DNA from: Kineosporiaceae bacterium
Lineage (GTDB): Bacteria > Actinomycetota > Actinomycetes > Actinomycetales > Kineosporiaceae
Length of the DNA: 53,476 nt
Reading direction: 5' to 3'
NCBI GenBank assembly: GCA_016794595.1
Contig: JAEUJN010000077.1
Location: forward strand, 1 to 53,476
Shown: positions 13,666 through 39,811 of the stretch, piece by piece
Layout: each line of letters starts with the position of its first letter
Position numbering within the stretch: the stretch's first letter is position 1
The notes under the pieces: model-generated
Database searches by the model: none
Seen by the model: the letters and a program-made list of their open reading frames with translations, nothing else
Told to the model about the DNA's origin: nothing
Position numbers and translations under genes: made by a program

Positions 13666-15120
13666 GTGGCGTTGCGCCGGATCGTGATCGTCGGCGGCGG
13701 GATCAGCGGCCTGACCGTGGCCTACCACCTGACGAGGGGCCCCCGGCCCCCCCGGGTCACGGTGCTCGAGGCAGGTTCTGCCCCCGGCGGCTGGGTGGGC
13801 TCGGCCGCGATCGCCGGGTATCGGGTCGACACCGGACCCGAGGCGCTGCTGGCCAGGATGCCCGCCGTCCAGGCGTTGCTGGCCGACCTCGGACTGGACG
13901 AGGCCCGCCGGGCCCCGCAGGGCAGCGCGTTCATCTGGGCGCGTGGGGCTCTGCGCCCGCTGCCGCAGAGCTCGGTGTTCGGCGTGCCCAACAAGCTGAT
14001 GCCCCTGCTGCGGTCCGGATTGGTGGGCCCGCTCGGCGTCCTGCGGGCGGGCGCCGATCTCGTGCTGCCCAGGCCGCGCCGGCTGCCCCCGGACCCGACG
14101 ATCGCCCAGGTGCTGCTGCCGCGCTTCGGATCGCAGGTGTTCGCCAACATGATCGAGCCCCTGCTCGGTGGGGTGCACGCGGGGGATGCGCGCCGGCTGT
14201 CGGTGCGCAGCGCCGTCCCCGAGGTGGCGGCGGCGGTCAGCGGGCGGCGCAGCATCTACCTGGCCCTGCGCGGCCGGGAACCGCGGACCGGCTCCGGCCC
14301 GGCGCTGATCGGCTTCGAGGGGGGCATCGAGCAGCTGGTGAGCGCCGTGGCGCAGGCGGTGCGTGCCGTCCCCTCCGCCGAGATCCGCTGTGGGACAAGG
14401 GTCTCGCGGCTGGACCCACTCTCGCCCGGGGGCTACCGGGTGACCATCGAGCACGGCGCGGAACTGCTCGCGGACGACGTCGTGCTCGCCGTCCCCGCCC
14501 CGGTCGCCGCGGCGCTGCTGGCCGAGACGGCACCGGACGCCGCCGCCGCTGCGGCCGCGATCCCGCACATCGGCGTGGCGACGCTGGTGCTGGCGTACGC
14601 GCCGTCCCAGATCGCGAACCCGTTGGCGGGCACCGGATTCCTGGTTCCACCCGCGGACGGCCGGCTGCTGGTCGGCTGCACCTGGCTGACCAGCAAGTGG
14701 GCCCATCTGCGCCCGGCGGACGGCGCGCCGGAGAAGGTGCTCATCCGGTGCATGGTCGGCCGGGACGGGCAGCAGTCCTGGCAGGACCTGGACGACGAGG
14801 CGCTGCTCGCCGCGGTGCGCCGGGAGCTCGCCGAGTCGATGGGCATTCACGAGCCCCCCGAGGCCGTCTCGATCCGGCGGATGCCGGGGGCGATGCCGCA
14901 GTACGTGGCCGGCCACGCGGATCGGGTGGCGGCGATCGATGCCGCACTGGTCCAGCGGCCCGGACTGCACGTGATCGGGTCCAGCTTCCGCGGGGTGGGC
15001 ATGGCCTCCTGCATCACCCACGCCGGGCTGCTGGCCGCCCGGATGACCAGCTCGATCACCGCCCCGAACACGACCCCCTCGCCGGACTCCCCGGTCGTGG
15101 CTCACCGAGGCACGCGATGA
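13666..15120 (+). CDS. hemY: HemY/CgoX-type coproporphyrinogen (protoporphyrinogen) III oxidase
   Basis: The 484-residue FAD protein opens with a dinucleotide fold (IVIVGGGISGLTVAYHL, residues 6-22) and continues ARMPAVQALLADLGL, FANMIEPLLGGVHAGDARRLSVRSAVPE and a C-terminal FAD segment (GLHVIGSSFRGVGMASCITHAGLLAA). This is the HemY family. In Actinomycetota it oxidises coproporphyrinogen III to coproporphyrin III in the coproporphyrin-dependent haem route and is then called CgoX. The start is GTG 13666 with GAAGG upstream; TTG 13672 is an alternative. Its stop overlaps the start of a radical SAM gene by four bases (ATGA), so the two are translationally coupled. It diverges from pepP. Confidence 0.92.
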   Translation: MALRRIVIVGGGISGLTVAYHLTRGPRPPRVTVLEAGSAPGGWVGSAAIAGYRVDTGPEALLARMPAVQALLADLGLDEARRAPQGSAFIWARGALRPLPQSSVFGVPNKLMPLLRSGLVGPLGVLRAGADLVLPRPRRLPPDPTIAQVLLPRFGSQVFANMIEPLLGGVHAGDARRLSVRSAVPEVAAAVSGRRSIYLALRGREPRTGSGPALIGFEGGIEQLVSAVAQAVRAVPSAEIRCGTRVSRLDPLSPGGYRVTIEHGAELLADDVVLAVPAPVAAALLAETAPDAAAAAAAIPHIGVATLVLAYAPSQIANPLAGTGFLVPPADGRLLVGCTWLTSKWAHLRPADGAPEKVLIRCMVGRDGQQSWQDLDDEALLAAVRRELAESMGIHEPPEAVSIRRMPGAMPQYVAGHADRVAAIDAALVQRPGLHVIGSSFRGVGMASCITHAGLLAARMTSSITAPNTTPSPDSPVVAHRGTR

Positions 15121-16256
15121 GCGTCGACTTCGCCCGGCGTCCGATGCTCGTCTTCTGGGAGACCACCCGAGCCTGTGCCCTGGCCTGCCGCCACTGCCGG
15201 GCGAGTGCCACCCCCGGGGCATTGCCCGGGGAACTGACCCATGCCGAGGGCATGGACCTGATCGATCAGGTCGCCGGTTTCGGACGCCCCTACCCGATCC
15301 TGGTGCTCACCGGCGGTGACTGCCTGCTGCGGCCCGACCTGTTCTCCCTGGTCGAGCACGCGACCTCGCTCGGCATCCCGACCGCCCTCTCGCCCTCGGT
15401 CACGCCGTCGCTGACCCCGGCGGCGATCGAGCGGATCGCGGCCAGCGGCGTCCGCGCCGTCTCGATCAGCCTGGACGGCGCCACCCCGGCGACGCACGAG
15501 GGGGTGCGCGGCATCGACGGGCTGTTCGTGCCGACGGTCGCGGCGATCCGCGACCTGGCCGCGGCCGGGTTGACGGTGCAGGTCAACACCACCGTGATGC
15601 GCTCGACCGTGGACGAGCTCGCCGACGTCGCGGCGATCGTGCGGGATGCCGGTGCCCACATCTGGGAGGTCTTCTTCCTGGTGCAGGTGGGCCGGGGCAG
15701 CGCGCTGGGCGAGCTGACCCCGCCGGAGAACGAGGACGTCTGCCACCTGCTCTACGACGCCTCCCGCCACGGGTTCATCGTGCGCACGGTCGAGGCACCG
15801 TTCTTCCGCCGCGTGGTGGCCGCCCGGCGGGCCGGTGGACCGGCCTCGGACGGCGCTCTCTACCACCGGTTGTCGGCTCGGCTGCGCGAGCTGCTGGGGG
15901 AGCCGGCGGACGACGTCCGGCCCAGCGCGCACACCGCTGCCACGCGGGACGGCAAGGGGATCGTGTTCGTCGCCCACGACGGCGAGGTGTACCCGGCCGG
16001 ATTCCTCCCGCTGGGGCTCGGGTCGGTGCGCGAGCAGCCGCTGGCCGAGATCTACCGCGACCATCCGCAGCTGCTCGCGATCCGCGCCGCCCGGTTCGCC
16101 GGCAGGTGCGGGCGGTGCGAGTACGCCGACCTGTGCGGCGGATCCCGGGCCCGCGCCCACGCGGCGTCCGGGGACGTGCTCGGTGAGGATCCGGCCTGCG
16201 CCTACCGGCCTGCCTTCGCTCCGGTCCCGGCGGGCGGTCACCAACCCTGTTCATGA
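15117..16256 (+). CDS. Radical SAM/SPASM protein, TIGR04053/NirJ-AhbD-like
   Basis: The 379-residue protein has the radical SAM motif CALACRHC (C20, C24, C27) for the [4Fe-4S]-SAM cluster, a TGGDCLLRPD segment near 65-74 and SISLDGATPATHEGVRG. The C-terminal SPASM/twitch part has C331, C334, C340 and C361 for a second cluster, with GGSRARAHAASGD and GEDPAC. The layout resembles NirJ and AhbD, which act on haem precursors. Translation is coupled to hemY (ATGA overlap). A role in haem synthesis or tetrapyrrole side-chain chemistry is a good hypothesis; the exact reaction is unknown. A longer ORF in this frame begins far upstream, inside hemY, but it is a composition artefact. The stop TGA is the first codon of a hairpin. 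Confidence 0.85.
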   Translation: MSVDFARRPMLVFWETTRACALACRHCRASATPGALPGELTHAEGMDLIDQVAGFGRPYPILVLTGGDCLLRPDLFSLVEHATSLGIPTALSPSVTPSLTPAAIERIAASGVRAVSISLDGATPATHEGVRGIDGLFVPTVAAIRDLAAAGLTVQVNTTVMRSTVDELADVAAIVRDAGAHIWEVFFLVQVGRGSALGELTPPENEDVCHLLYDASRHGFIVRTVEAPFFRRVVAARRAGGPASDGALYHRLSARLRELLGEPADDVRPSAHTAATRDGKGIVFVAHDGEVYPAGFLPLGLGSVREQPLAEIYRDHPQLLAIRAARFAGRCGRCEYADLCGGSRARAHAASGDVLGEDPACAYRPAFAPVPAGGHQPCS

Positions 16257-16302
16257 TCGTGACGAGTTCGTCCGTGTATCACGGACGAACTCGTCACGAT
16301 CA
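16254..16302. terminator. Perfect 23-bp hairpin, family B, left copy
   Basis: The 23-base arm beginning TGATCGTGACGAGTTC is perfectly complementary to 16280-16302 around a TAT loop. Its first three bases are the stop codon of the radical SAM gene. An almost identical hairpin in the same orientation ends the next gene (17359-17411). Confidence 0.85.
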
Positions 16303-16367
16303 CCGGTGGGTCGGGGTTGTCCACAGGGGGTGAGCGGGGGTCGGGCCCGGTGCGCCAGGGTCGGGGC

Positions 16368-17363
16368 GTGACCGGACGCCGCCCGAGGCCGCCCGAACCC
16401 TGGCAGCAGCTCGCCGCGGACCAGGGCGGGGTGATCACCCGTGGCCAGCTGCTCGCCCTCGGCCTCAGCGCGTCGGCGGCCACCTGGCTGGTCGACAAGC
16501 GCCGTTGGCCCGAGGTGCACCGCGGGGTCTACGCCACCGGAACCCTGCCCGGCCACCCGCTGCCGTACTCCAGCCGGGTGTGGGCAGGGCTGCTGGTCAG
16601 CGGGCCCGGGGCTGTGGTGGCCGGTCGTACCGCTCTGCACCTGGACGGGCTCGGCCAGGCTCCGCCGGCGGCGGTCCAGCTCGCCGTCCCGCTGGCGCGC
16701 CATCCCACGCAGCGACCCGGGCTGGTCGTCGTCCGGCGCCGTCACCTGGACGAGCTCACCCACCCGGCGGCGCGCCCGCCTCGGTTGCGCGTGGAGGCGG
16801 CCACCCTCGACGTCGCCGCGCAGGCTGCCCGAGCCGAGGACGCCGCGGGCGTGGTGCTCGCCGTCCTGCAGCGCCGCCTGACCACTGCCGAACGCCTCGT
16901 CGAGGCCTTGGCGGCCCGCTCGCGCCACCCGTGGCGGCGACTGCTGACCGACGTGCTCCTCGATGCCACCACCGGGGTGGCCAGCTTGCTGGAACGCGCC
17001 TACGTGACCGGGGTGGAGCGGGCCCACCGGCTGCCGCGCAGCGAACGGAACCTGGCCGACCGCGAGCGTGATGCCCTCGGGCTGGACCGCGGCCGGCGCT
17101 ATCGCGACATCGCCTACCTCGCCCACCGCGTGGTGATCGAGCTGGACGGCGGGACGCACCGTGAGCCGGGAGCGCGAGCCCTGGACGATCGGCGCGACAA
17201 CCGGCTGCTGCTGCGTGACGTGCTGAGCCTGCGCTACGGCTGGGTGGACGTCACCGGCCGGCGGTGCGAGGTCGCCACCGAGGTGGGTGGCGTGCTGAGG
17301 CTGCGGGGCTGGGCCGGTCACCCGGTGCGGTGTGGTCCCGCCTGCCCACTGCCCCCTTCATGA
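16368..17363 (+). CDS. AbiEi-like wHTH plus DUF559 (Vsr-fold) protein
   Basis: The 331-residue protein has an N-terminal winged-helix part (about 18-57: GGVITRGQLLALGLSASAATWLVD, HRGVYA) like AbiEi-type domains. The C-terminal DUF559-like part has a possible PD-(D/E)xK centre: D247 (RDIAYL), E258/D260 (VIELDGGTH) and a DDRRDNRLL segment. Such proteins are common, highly variable actinobacterial accessory genes. Nuclease activity is inferred, not shown. The start is uncertain: I prefer GTG 16368; GTG 16350 and TTG 16317 are possible. The gene lies exactly between two family-B hairpins in the same orientation, and its stop TGA is part of the second, which suggests it may move as a unit. Confidence 0.75.
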   Translation: MTGRRPRPPEPWQQLAADQGGVITRGQLLALGLSASAATWLVDKRRWPEVHRGVYATGTLPGHPLPYSSRVWAGLLVSGPGAVVAGRTALHLDGLGQAPPAAVQLAVPLARHPTQRPGLVVVRRRHLDELTHPAARPPRLRVEAATLDVAAQAARAEDAAGVVLAVLQRRLTTAERLVEALAARSRHPWRRLLTDVLLDATTGVASLLERAYVTGVERAHRLPRSERNLADRERDALGLDRGRRYRDIAYLAHRVVIELDGGTHREPGARALDDRRDNRLLLRDVLSLRYGWVDVTGRRCEVATEVGGVLRLRGWAGHPVRCGPACPLPPS

Positions 17364-17411
17364 TCGTGACGAGTTCGTCCGTGTATCACGGACGAACTCG
17401 TCACGATCATG
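17359..17411. terminator. Perfect 25-bp hairpin, family B, right copy
   Basis: The stem arms 17359-17383 and 17387-17411 pair perfectly around TAT. The inner 49 bases are identical to the copy at 16254-16302. It supplies the stop codon (17361-17363) of the DUF559 gene and lies 12 bases from the end of the convergent hydratase gene, so it could stop transcription from both sides. Confidence 0.85.
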
Positions 17412-37174: not shown

Positions 37175-37223
37175 TGATCGTGACGAGTTCGTCCGTGATA
37201 CACGGACGAACTCGTCACGATCA
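37175..37223. terminator. Family-B hairpin, mirror of 16254-16302
   Basis: Perfect 23-bp stem that includes the stop codon of the radical SAM copy (37221-37223). Confidence 0.8.
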
Positions 37224-38360
37224 TGAACAGGGTTGGTGACCGCCCGCCGGGACCGGAGCGAAGGCAGGCCGGTAGGCGCAGGCCGGATCCTCACCGAGCA
37301 CGTCCCCGGACGCCGCGTGGGCGCGGGCCCGGGATCCGCCGCACAGGTCGGCGTACTCGCACCGCCCGCACCTGCCGGCGAACCGGGCGGCGCGGATCGC
37401 GAGCAGCTGCGGATGGTCGCGGTAGATCTCGGCCAGCGGCTGCTCGCGCACCGACCCGAGCCCCAGCGGGAGGAATCCGGCCGGGTACACCTCGCCGTCG
37501 TGGGCGACGAACACGATCCCCTTGCCGTCCCGCGTGGCAGCGGTGTGCGCGCTGGGCCGGACGTCGTCCGCCGGCTCCCCCAGCAGCTCGCGCAGCCGAG
37601 CCGACAACCGGTGGTAGAGAGCGCCGTCCGAGGCCGGTCCACCGGCCCGCCGGGCGGCCACCACGCGGCGGAAGAACGGTGCCTCGACCGTGCGCACGAT
37701 GAACCCGTGGCGGGAGGCGTCGTAGAGCAGGTGGCAGACGTCCTCGTTCTCCGGCGGGGTCAGCTCGCCCAGCGCGCTGCCCCGGCCCACCTGCACCAGG
37801 AAGAAGACCTCCCAGATGTGGGCACCGGCATCCCGCACGATCGCCGCGACGTCGGCGAGCTCGTCCACGGTCGAGCGCATCACGGTGGTGTTGACCTGCA
37901 CCGTCAACCCGGCCGCGGCCAGGTCGCGGATCGCCGCGACCGTCGGCACGAACAGCCCGTCGATGCCGCGCACCCCCTCGTGCGTCGCCGGGGTGGCGCC
38001 GTCCAGGCTGATCGAGACGGCGCGGACGCCGCTGGCCGCGATCCGCTCGATCGCCGCCGGGGTCAGCGACGGCGTGACCGAGGGCGAGAGGGCGGTCGGG
38101 ATGCCGAGCGAGGTCGCGTGCTCGACCAGGGAGAACAGGTCGGGCCGCAGCAGGCAGTCACCGCCGGTGAGCACCAGGATCGGGTAGGGGCGTCCGAAAC
38201 CGGCGACCTGATCGATCAGGTCCATGCCCTCGGCATGGGTCAGTTCCCCGGGCAATGCCCCGGGGGTGGCACTCGCCCGGCAGTGGCGGCAGGCCAGGGC
38301 ACAGGCTCGGGTGGTCTCCCAGAAGACGAGCATCGGACGCCGGGCGAAGTCGACGCTCAT
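37221..38360 (-). CDS. Radical SAM/SPASM protein, mirror copy
   Basis: Mirror of 15117-16256 with the same C20/C24/C27 and C331/C334/C340/C361 clusters, overlapping the hemY copy by four bases. Confidence 0.8.
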   Translation of the reverse strand: MSVDFARRPMLVFWETTRACALACRHCRASATPGALPGELTHAEGMDLIDQVAGFGRPYPILVLTGGDCLLRPDLFSLVEHATSLGIPTALSPSVTPSLTPAAIERIAASGVRAVSISLDGATPATHEGVRGIDGLFVPTVAAIRDLAAAGLTVQVNTTVMRSTVDELADVAAIVRDAGAHIWEVFFLVQVGRGSALGELTPPENEDVCHLLYDASRHGFIVRTVEAPFFRRVVAARRAGGPASDGALYHRLSARLRELLGEPADDVRPSAHTAATRDGKGIVFVAHDGEVYPAGFLPLGLGSVREQPLAEIYRDHPQLLAIRAARFAGRCGRCEYADLCGGSRARAHAASGDVLGEDPACAYRPAFAPVPAGGHQPCS

Positions 38361-39811
38361 CGCGTGCCTCGGTGAGCCACGACCGGGGAGTCCGGCGAGG
38401 GGGTCGTGTTCGGGGCGGTGATCGAGCTGGTCATCCGGGCGGCCAGCAGCCCGGCGTGGGTGATGCAGGAGGCCATGCCCACCCCGCGGAAGCTGGACCC
38501 GATCACGTGCAGTCCGGGCCGCTGGACCAGTGCGGCATCGATCGCCGCCACCCGATCCGCGTGGCCGGCCACGTACTGCGGCATCGCCCCCGGCATCCGC
38601 CGGATCGAGACGGCCTCGGGGGGCTCGTGAATGCCCATCGACTCGGCGAGCTCCCGGCGCACCGCGGCGAGCAGCGCCTCGTCGTCCAGGTCCTGCCAGG
38701 ACTGCTGCCCGTCCCGGCCGACCATGCACCGGATGAGCACCTTCTCCGGCGCGCCGTCCGCCGGGCGCAGATGGGCCCACTTGCTGGTCAGCCAGGTGCA
38801 GCCGACCAGCAGCCGGCCGTCCGCGGGTGGAACCAGGAATCCGGTGCCCGCCAACGGGTTCGCGATCTGGGACGGCGCGTACGCCAGCACCAGCGTCGCC
38901 ACGCCGATGTGCGGGATCGCGGCCGCAGCGGCGGCGGCGTCCGGTGCCGTCTCGGCCAGCAGCGCCGCGGCGACCGGGGCGGGGACGGCGAGCACGACGT
39001 CGTCCGCGAGCAGTTCCGCGCCGTGCTCGATGGTCACCCGGTAGCCCCCGGGCGAGAGTGGGTCCAGCCGCGAGACCCTTGTCCCACAGCGGATCTCGGC
39101 GGAGGGGACGGCACGCACCGCCTGCGCCACGGCGCTCACCAGCTGCTCGATGCCCCCCTCGAAGCCGATCAGCGCCGGGCCGGAGCCGGTCCGCGGTTCC
39201 CGGCCGCGCAGGGCCAGGTAGATGCTGCGCCGCCCGCTGACCGCCGCCGCCACCTCGGGGACGGCGCTGCGCACCGACAGCCGGCGCGCATCCCCCGCGT
39301 GCACCCCACCGAGCAGGGGCTCGATCATGTTGGCGAACACCTGCGATCCGAAGCGCGGCAGCAGCACCTGGGCGATCGTCGGGTCCGGGGGCAGCCGGCG
39401 CGGCCTGGGCAGCACGAGATCGGCGCCCGCCCGCAGGACGCCGAGCGGGCCCACCAATCCGGACCGCAGCAGGGGCATCAGCTTGTTGGGCACGCCGAAC
39501 ACCGAGCTCTGCGGCAGCGGGCGCAGAGCCCCACGCGCCCAGATGAACGCGCTGCCCTGCGGGGCCCGGCGGGCCTCGTCCAGTCCGAGGTCGGCCAGCA
39601 ACGCCTGGACGGCGGGCATCCTGGCCAGCAGCGCCTCGGGTCCGGTGTCGACCCGATACCCGGCGATCGCGGCCGAGCCCACCCAGCCGCCGGGGGCAGA
39701 ACCTGCCTCGAGCACCGTGACCCGGGGGGGCCGGGGGCCCCTCGTCAGGTGGTAGGCCACGGTCAGGCCGCTGATCCCGCCGCCGACGATCACGATCCGG
39801 CGCAACGCCAC
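38357..39811 (-). CDS. hemY: HemY/CgoX-type oxidase, mirror copy
   Basis: Mirror of 13666-15120, 484 residues, GTG start. Confidence 0.87.
   Translation of the reverse strand: MALRRIVIVGGGISGLTVAYHLTRGPRPPRVTVLEAGSAPGGWVGSAAIAGYRVDTGPEALLARMPAVQALLADLGLDEARRAPQGSAFIWARGALRPLPQSSVFGVPNKLMPLLRSGLVGPLGVLRAGADLVLPRPRRLPPDPTIAQVLLPRFGSQVFANMIEPLLGGVHAGDARRLSVRSAVPEVAAAVSGRRSIYLALRGREPRTGSGPALIGFEGGIEQLVSAVAQAVRAVPSAEIRCGTRVSRLDPLSPGGYRVTIEHGAELLADDVVLAVPAPVAAALLAETAPDAAAAAAAIPHIGVATLVLAYAPSQIANPLAGTGFLVPPADGRLLVGCTWLTSKWAHLRPADGAPEKVLIRCMVGRDGQQSWQDLDDEALLAAVRRELAESMGIHEPPEAVSIRRMPGAMPQYVAGHADRVAAIDAALVQRPGLHVIGSSFRGVGMASCITHAGLLAARMTSSITAPNTTPSPDSPVVAHRGTR

Follow-up and report, generated by a model that had tools for sequence, protein, structure and literature searches.

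A candidate oxygen-independent coproheme decarboxylase gene overlapping cgoX in a Kineosporiaceae bacterium

Contig JAEUJN010000077.1 of the Kineosporiaceae bacterium assembly GCA_016794595.1, analysed here over its whole length of 53476 bases (the window, whose positions number all features below), carries the coproporphyrinogen III oxidase gene cgoX and, directly downstream, a radical S-adenosylmethionine (SAM)/SPASM gene of the family TIGR04053. The second gene probably encodes an oxygen-independent coproheme decarboxylase, a sister of AhbD with one auxiliary cluster, which would be used alongside the coproporphyrin-dependent haem pathway. Its use beside the decarboxylase ChdC at low oxygen is, as we infer, the best reading. 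A role as backup of ChdC is best supported because AhbD is the next best family, because of the place of the protein in a phylogenetic tree, because relatives are linked to haem genes and because of the phenotype of a Haloferax mutant. A first-pass annotation of this DNA had suggested that the protein either replaces or backs up ChdC; the backup stands, while replacement is ruled out in this organism, whose genome contains chdC.

The cgoX-radical SAM gene pair and its genomic setting

The pair had been described in the first pass as coupled by a four-base overlap, and the sequence bears this out. The features of the locus are:

13666..15120, plus strand: cgoX, coproporphyrinogen III oxidase of the HemY type, GTG start, 484 residues
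15117..15120, plus strand: ATGA overlap of four bases shared by the cgoX stop and the radical SAM start, read from the sequence
15117..16256, plus strand: radical SAM/SPASM gene of TIGR04053, ATG start at 15117, 379 residues
11964-13607: aminopeptidase P-type gene, upstream of cgoX and divergent from it
38357..39811, minus strand: mirror copy of cgoX in the inverted-repeat contig, probably an assembly duplicate
37221..38360, minus strand: mirror copy of the radical SAM gene in the inverted-repeat contig, probably an assembly duplicate

The cgoX product belongs to CgoX/HemY with a TIGR00562 score of 209.7 bits (cut-off 97.85) and also matches Pfam Amino_oxidase. Through the ATGA overlap, the two genes would be translationally coupled, a tight link to a TIGR04053 gene that is the unusual trait of this otherwise HemY-type CgoX. 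Because the upstream aminopeptidase P-type gene is divergent, cgoX and the radical SAM gene seem to form an operon of two genes. The entire contig is a perfect inverted repeat (0 mismatches, centre 26738/26739) and therefore represents one locus printed twice, not two; its turning point is itself hairpin-like, which makes a fold-back by the assembler likely. A whole-genome protein search returned the window copy of cgoX, its mirror and one 20-bit match, and cgoX at 13666..15120 is the sole clear copy found in the genome.

The genome (G000) also encodes ChdC (248 bits, contig C106, a frame of 206 residues) and CpfC (247 bits, contig C42), two enzymes whose presence the first-pass annotation had proposed to check. 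With chdC, cpfC and cgoX, the genome is equipped for all final steps of the peroxide-using coproporphyrin route. The presence of chdC implies the coproporphyrin route, in which coproporphyrinogen and not protoporphyrinogen would be the substrate of CgoX. ChdC (HemQ) catalyses the step proposed here for the radical SAM protein, coproheme to haem b, but it belongs to an unrelated protein family and is reported to require H2O2 (PMC10965808); both enzymes occur in this genome. NarG is found with 1650 bits, and the organism may respire nitrate. The sirohaem (Ahb) route is unlikely as regards AhbC: the TIGR04053 search of this genome, in which besides the window copies only MftC fragments are listed, yielded no AhbC-level protein (a reference AhbC scores 226 bits with TIGR04053), although the model of AhbC itself and AhbA/B were not searched. 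MftC is encoded on contig C42 (locus L004, 608 bits), and mycofactocin is probably made as well.

Family membership and cluster cysteines

Among the NCBIfam profiles, the radical SAM protein is a full member of TIGR04053, a family whose function is unnamed there (492.8 bits, cut-off 395). The next best family is AhbD (TIGR04545) with 266.1 bits, under its cut-off of 500. The remaining scores all fall below their cut-offs as well, namely NirJ2 with 188, NirJ (TIGR04051) with 155 of 515.45, AhbC with 149 of 650 and MftC (TIGR03962) with 108.9 of 265. By family cut-offs, the predicted protein is neither NirJ nor AhbD nor MftC. Pfam recognises Radical_SAM and SPASM. The resemblance to enzymes of haem d1 and alternative haem synthesis noted in the first pass thus holds in part: AhbD is the next best family and the sister group in the tree, but the protein remains under the cut-offs of both AhbD and NirJ. 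The diagnostic positions are:

codons 15174..15197, plus strand: radical SAM [4Fe-4S] motif C20-X3-C24-X2-C27, invariant in 23/23 and 51/51 aligned members
15792..15794, plus strand: E226, Cys in most AhbD-like rows (KPTCAP), aligned by flanking conserved columns
15996..15998, plus strand: A294, Cys in 11/11 AhbD rows and Ser in 90% of 106 TIGR04053 rows
codons 16107..16199, plus strand: auxiliary [4Fe-4S] motif C331-X2-C334-X5-C340-X20-C361, of the AuxII type of AhbD
16143..16145, plus strand: S343 of CGGS, Ser in 106/106 TIGR04053 rows and Cys (CGGC) in 11/11 AhbD rows

All seven cluster cysteines (C20, C24, C27, C331, C334, C340 and C361) are invariant in 23/23 and 51/51 aligned members; the alignment of 23 members left out L039, L041, L048 and L050. 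The C-terminal cysteines and the GGSRARA segment, both picked out in the first pass, are confirmed in the arrangement C331-X2-C334-X5-C340-GGSRARA...C361, the segment lying directly after C340 and before C361. The protein shares with AhbD both the CX3CX2C motif and the C-terminal CX2CX5CX20-38C motif, its auxiliary spacing agreeing with that published for AhbD (PMC10452713). The full SPASM motif with AuxI cysteines, which is confined to a subset of AhbDs, is absent, and T276, A294, S343 and E226 occupy the Cys places. Across 12 AhbD-like proteins, Cys never varies at three of the four AuxI places, and at the fourth it is just the consensus residue. In TIGR04053 these places hold S343, Ser (90%) or Ala, a hydrophobic residue or Thr, and commonly Glu at the fourth. 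The AhbDs of non-methanogenic archaea, with one exception, are likewise described as devoid of the four cysteines, three of which are replaced by one Glu and two Ser (PMC10452713). TIGR04053 proteins resemble these at the AuxI site, the membership of such archaeal sequences in TIGR04053 having been checked for haloarchaeal loci only (by score for Haloferax marisrubri). An AlphaFold2 model of the protein reaches a mean predicted local distance difference test score (pLDDT) of 91.2, and its fold matches are radical SAM/SPASM enzymes, generic and not decisive.

Phylogeny and diagnostic residues

A tree with AhbD, NirJ and MftC, as suggested by the first-pass annotation, places the protein beside AhbD, apart from MftC and not in a peptide-modifying group. 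The tree comprises 131 proteins and was computed under LG+C20+F+G4 by posterior mean site frequencies, a quick method, with support from the Shimodaira-Hasegawa-like approximate likelihood ratio test (SH-aLRT). It omits L039, L041, L048, L050, L104 (a short contig) and L110 (on the same contig as L052). Its AhbD rows represent 11 genomes, include no biochemically tested AhbD and omit L058 (97% like L059) and the over-long frame of L069. The latter (L069:9281-11668) is AhbD-like and has 795 residues, roughly double the usual number; its additional C-terminal part perhaps indicates a fusion.

The 106 TIGR04053 rows make up one side of a branch with an SH-aLRT of 100, the 11 AhbD rows are supported with 97, and AhbD, TIGR04053 and one Paenibacillus protein group together with 83. 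TIGR04053 is the sister group of AhbD in this tree, and the window protein lies outside the AhbD group. NirJ and AhbC belong to the same wider radical SAM tetrapyrrole group but fall outside AhbD plus TIGR04053, on a side of the tree with support 99 that includes an annotated Ruegeria NirJ. The MftC group, including the MftC of the same genome, stands apart with support 100. The nearest relatives of the window protein come from other families of its phylum, the closest being 64% identical, and of two further members from the same order one (G062) falls on a long branch within the 12-row group of the window protein and the other (G139) elsewhere. This scattered placement suggests either horizontal transfer or an old duplication with loss.

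Residues E15, R28, A29, Q155, F186, R232, F284 and G295 are common to TIGR04053 (106 rows) and AhbD (11 rows), the comparison omitting the GDL row and two Paenibacillus rows. Among eight AhbC/NirJ-type rows, A29 differs in five and the other shared residues in at least seven; E15 is present in MftC too. The likeness of the window protein to AhbD therefore extends from score, tree position and cysteine motifs to R28, Q155, F186, R232 and F284. From most members of its own family, the protein differs at A294, where Ala replaces Ser in the window protein and seven near relatives, and by R and V at positions 223 and 225.

Haem and respiration genes near the relatives

Gene neighbourhoods were compared at 111 distinct loci, 27 from the window and a draw of genomes of its phylum (G229 included, G151 excluded), 5 from plasmids and 79 from named genomes. 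Neighbours were called by tblastn with one reference protein per gene, so that misses are possible, and L110 was excluded from the strict count. At 22/111 loci, from Actinomycetota, Bacillota, Chloroflexota and haloarchaea, hemE, cgoX, cpfC or chdC lies within 3 kb; of the 22, 21 belong to the 89 loci whose sequence extends 3 kb or more to either side. The cgoX gene is adjacent (within 200 nt, on the same strand) in 14/111 loci, each from another genus or lineage, and its pairing with TIGR04053 is more than chance. By a rough estimate, any of the four pathway genes would occur among six neighbours in 4000 with a probability under 1%.

In actinobacteria cgoX precedes the radical SAM gene, and the four-base overlap recurs in Tessaracoccus, Mobilicoccus, Piscicoccus, Cellulomonas and an Acidimicrobiia metagenome-assembled genome (MAG). 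Of eight such junctions inspected, five have this overlap with the automatically chosen start, two more would have it if a downstream start were used, and one shows a 10-nt gap. The order is reversed in Cryobacterium sp. N22, Saccharibacillus, Bacillus sp. FJAT-49711 and L100. Larger haem clusters that contain the radical SAM gene (rSAM) are laid out as follows:

L100: hemE-cpfC-rSAM-cgoX
L047: hemE-cpfC-cgoX-chdC-rSAM
L116: rSAM-chdC-cpfC-cgoX
L135: rSAM-chdC-cpfC
L040: rSAM divergent from hemE-cpfC
L146: rSAM divergent from hemE-cpfC-cgoX

In Halorussus (L080) the TIGR04053 gene has a gene annotated as hemG close by, and the Halolamina locus (L158) carries a relative of this hemG-annotated gene. 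The cluster of L100 (genome G314) lies near norB and contains no chdC, and four ChdC-family matches occur elsewhere in the genome.

Genes of denitrification (narG, nirK, nirS, norB or nosZ) are found within 7 kb at 28/111 loci. Genomes with narG close to the TIGR04053 gene comprise three of Micromonospora, one of Cryobacterium and, from the phylum draw, two that share a genus. At L038 and L039, which represent the TIGR04053-positive genomes (2/8) of one genus, narG is about 2.3 kb and 0.5 kb away from the radical SAM gene. The Cryobacterium loci L089, L090 and L094 have TIGR04053 close to norB, with two ferrochelatase matches per genome and, at L089, a cgoX within 5 kb; they possibly reflect a second, low-oxygen haem set. 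Five haloarchaeal loci (L111, L112, L115, L123 and L144) harbour a second radical SAM gene nearby on the opposite strand, 28-33% identical to the reference queries.

Co-occurrence with ChdC

The phylum draw comprised 296 genomes, 27 of which encode TIGR04053 above its cut-off. ChdC is present in 22/27 of these and in 139/269 of the others (p = 0.004; the p values given here ignore kinship). Weaker matches (E <= 1e-60, below the cut-off) occur in 43 genomes. A single one of these, G229, has ChdC, and its protein falls in the TIGR04053 clade; without it, ChdC is found in 0/42 genomes with weaker, mostly AhbD-like matches. Eleven of these 42 were placed in the tree, where every one falls on the AhbD branch; two scanned proteins pass the AhbD cut-off, and some of the other matches are partial or low. 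The sister groups TIGR04053 and AhbD hence appear to occupy opposite haem backgrounds, and the ChdC-containing background of the window protein sets it apart from AhbD. Among the genomes of named loci (50 of 80 loci taken), ChdC is found in 46/49 and ferrochelatase in 45/49, two of the ChdC matches being weak (42 and 49 bits). CgoN is present in 13/15 Bacillota genomes with TIGR04053, only TIGR04053 genomes having been counted.

Elsewhere, in some lineages, TIGR04053 may replace ChdC. Six genomes with ferrochelatase and TIGR04053 (G010, G135, G157, G312, G330 and G337) have no ChdC match, and all six are multi-contig or MAG-titled records, so that assembly gaps are possible. The best case is G010: in this 94% complete genome no ChdC candidate was found, and hemC, cobA/hemD, cgoX, the radical SAM gene, hemE, cpfC and hemB lie within about 12 kb with no chdC among them. 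G135 was set aside, as its ferrochelatase gene lies near a contig end with no other haem genes found, and the absence of chdC is maybe due to an assembly gap. A general rule that TIGR04053 makes ChdC dispensable is unsupported: ferrochelatase genomes without ChdC number 3/19 with such a protein and 20/103 without it (p = 1).

The haloarchaeal relatives

The ahbD gene of Haloferax volcanii (HVO_2144) has nirK (HVO_2141), a halocyanin gene (HVO_2145) and norB (HVO_2147) as its neighbours, and its deletion is reported to impair anaerobic growth only, whereas deletion of the ChdC-type gene pitA impairs aerobic growth instead (PMC5746218). According to the same report, haem rescues growth of the HVO_2144 mutant on dimethyl sulfoxide (DMSO) and, together with DMSO, part of its denitrifying growth. 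The published order of H. volcanii recurs in Haloferax marisrubri and H. sp. Q22 as nirK, radical SAM gene, halocyanin gene, norB; the H. marisrubri protein scores 502.9 bits with TIGR04053 and fails the AhbD cut-off with 340.6. The H. volcanii genome, one of three controls of which two exceed the TIGR04053 cut-off, contains a TIGR04053 match at E <= 1e-60, the search specifying neither the gene nor the two controls above the cut-off. Judged by synteny, the Haloferax ahbD is a TIGR04053 gene.

Proposed function and points against it

By analogy with AhbD, the N-terminal [4Fe-4S] cluster would cleave SAM to a 5'-deoxyadenosyl radical, which would act in turn on the propionates of coproheme rings A and B, each time abstracting a hydrogen at the beta carbon. 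CO2 would be lost, the C-terminal cluster would receive the spare electron by way of the haem iron, and the formation of two vinyl groups would yield haem b. CgoX, produced from the same message by coupled translation, would supply coproporphyrin III, into which CpfC would insert iron. The last step would be performed either by ChdC with H2O2 or by the radical SAM enzyme without it.

Several observations weigh against this proposal. The AhbD cut-off is missed by far (266 of 500), the AuxI cysteines are all absent, and AhbDs without them are described as never assayed biochemically (PMC10452713); for the bacterial members, the function is that of a candidate only. The subclade of the window protein deviates at conserved sites (A294, R223 and V225, with Q190 and C69 in the window protein), and its function may therefore have shifted. 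No pathway gene lies within 3 kb at 89/111 loci, 64/111 show neither pathway nor denitrification genes, and the co-occurrence with narG is modest (8/27 versus 30/269 in the phylum draw, p = 0.013). The haem role in Haloferax belongs to another setting, taken as the sirohaem route: the authors assign ahbD to this route in view of the missing cgoX and cpfC (PMC5746218), H. volcanii has AhbC, and in the H. marisrubri genome ferrochelatase was not found.

CgoX itself adds a further difficulty. CgoX of Staphylococcus aureus is reported to be required with and without oxygen, and cgoX of four other Firmicutes substitutes for it anaerobically, while that of Streptomyces coelicolor does not (PMC6620371). 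CgoN was not found in the genome of the window. This absence and the failure of the S. coelicolor gene imply that a fully anoxic pathway would need a CgoX that uses another acceptor.

Alternative explanations

The protein might instead act like NirJ in haem d1 synthesis, taking propionates off a ring derived from sirohaem, or make another modified tetrapyrrole, with an indirect link to cgoX; we regard this as improbable. NirJ falls within the same wider clade, and a TIGR04053 gene of Thermus (L077:8995-10122) lies between nitrite reductase and cytochrome c genes, the position that nirJ holds in the nirSJM operon as published; nirJ expression there depends on the nitrate respiration cluster's DnrS and DnrT (PMC5748679, PMC7694296). 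A member of the family has thus been published as NirJ, which also speaks against the decarboxylase. The Thermus gene belongs to TIGR04053 and not to the NirJ family, and its haem d1 role may deserve a new look. On the other side stand the low NirJ score of the window protein, the position of the Ruegeria NirJ and the lack of an AhbC-level match among the TIGR04053 search matches of this genome. Several haloarchaeal members lie near the copper enzyme gene nirK with no NirS match there, and DMSO respiration is lost as well in the H. volcanii deletion mutant, a defect that haem rescues (PMC5746218).

Equally improbable is a metal-free substrate, i.e., that the protein cooperates with CgoX before iron insertion and decarboxylates or oxidises coproporphyrinogen or coproporphyrin. 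Such a role would suit cgoX as the commonest direct partner, often with the four-base overlap. However, AhbD is reported to turn over metal-free coproporphyrin very poorly (PMC11306076), the gene stands beside chdC or cpfC at L047, L100, L116 and L135, and TIGR04053 accompanies ChdC and ferrochelatase genome-wide.

It is more doubtful still that the protein is a decayed or regulatory homologue, non-catalytic in this organism. Several family-conserved positions do differ, but the seven cluster cysteines and R28, Q155, F186 and R232 are intact, the frame is open and the structural model has a mean pLDDT of 91. Least credible of all is a peptide-modifying SPASM enzyme beside cgoX by accident: its best solved-structure matches are SkfB, BlsE, SuiB and PqqE, which act on peptides or small molecules, but these searches cannot discriminate, as no AhbD or NirJ structure is among the 4 sequence matches or 50 fold matches listed, and both the separation from MftC by tree and residues and the recurrence of adjacent haem genes in several phyla argue against it.

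Other features of the contig

A 53-base block with a 23-pair hairpin is present in two identical copies, at 16250-16302 and 17357-17409, which flank a gene with an AbiEi_4 domain (16317-17363). The first block (16250-16302) folds with a z score of -8.9. The exact 53-base pattern is found nowhere else in the genome except in the mirror copies.

Implications for haem synthesis at low oxygen

Completion of the coproporphyrin route by AhbD already features in reviews (PMC7242693, PMC10548856, PMC12670364), one of which refers to Bali 2011 and Dailey 2015 for the occurrence of ahbD with hemY/hemH/hemQ or with ahbABC (PMC10548856). The oxygen-independent coproheme decarboxylase of Gram-positive bacteria was called unknown in 2024 (PMC10965808). 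A literature search found no paper that names TIGR04053, and a forerunner may exist in the 2015/2017 Dailey papers. New here are the naming of TIGR04053 for the oxygen-free step, its cluster pattern and its linkage; nothing wider is claimed.

For the family at large, the evidence is evenly poised on whether TIGR04053 is the sought oxygen-independent coproheme decarboxylase of coproporphyrin-route bacteria. As such, it would be an AhbD sister with one auxiliary cluster, kept beside ChdC in Actinomycetota, Bacillota, Chloroflexota, Deinococcota, Acidobacteriota and haloarchaea, forming a cgoX-coupled low-oxygen haem module and serving as the sole coproheme decarboxylase in a few lineages (e.g., behind L040). 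ChdC needs H2O2, yet anoxic nitrate respiration is within the reach of bacteria with ChdC and demands haem. TIGR04053 offers a concrete, widespread and uncharacterised candidate family for oxygen-free haem finishing, and in Bacillota its presence together with CgoN would provide, on paper, an oxygen-independent enzyme for every late step. If true, the proposal would call for re-annotation of the haloarchaeal “ahbD” and possibly of the Thermus “nirJ”, and it predicts that the CgoX partners are of the flexible sort and functional at low oxygen.

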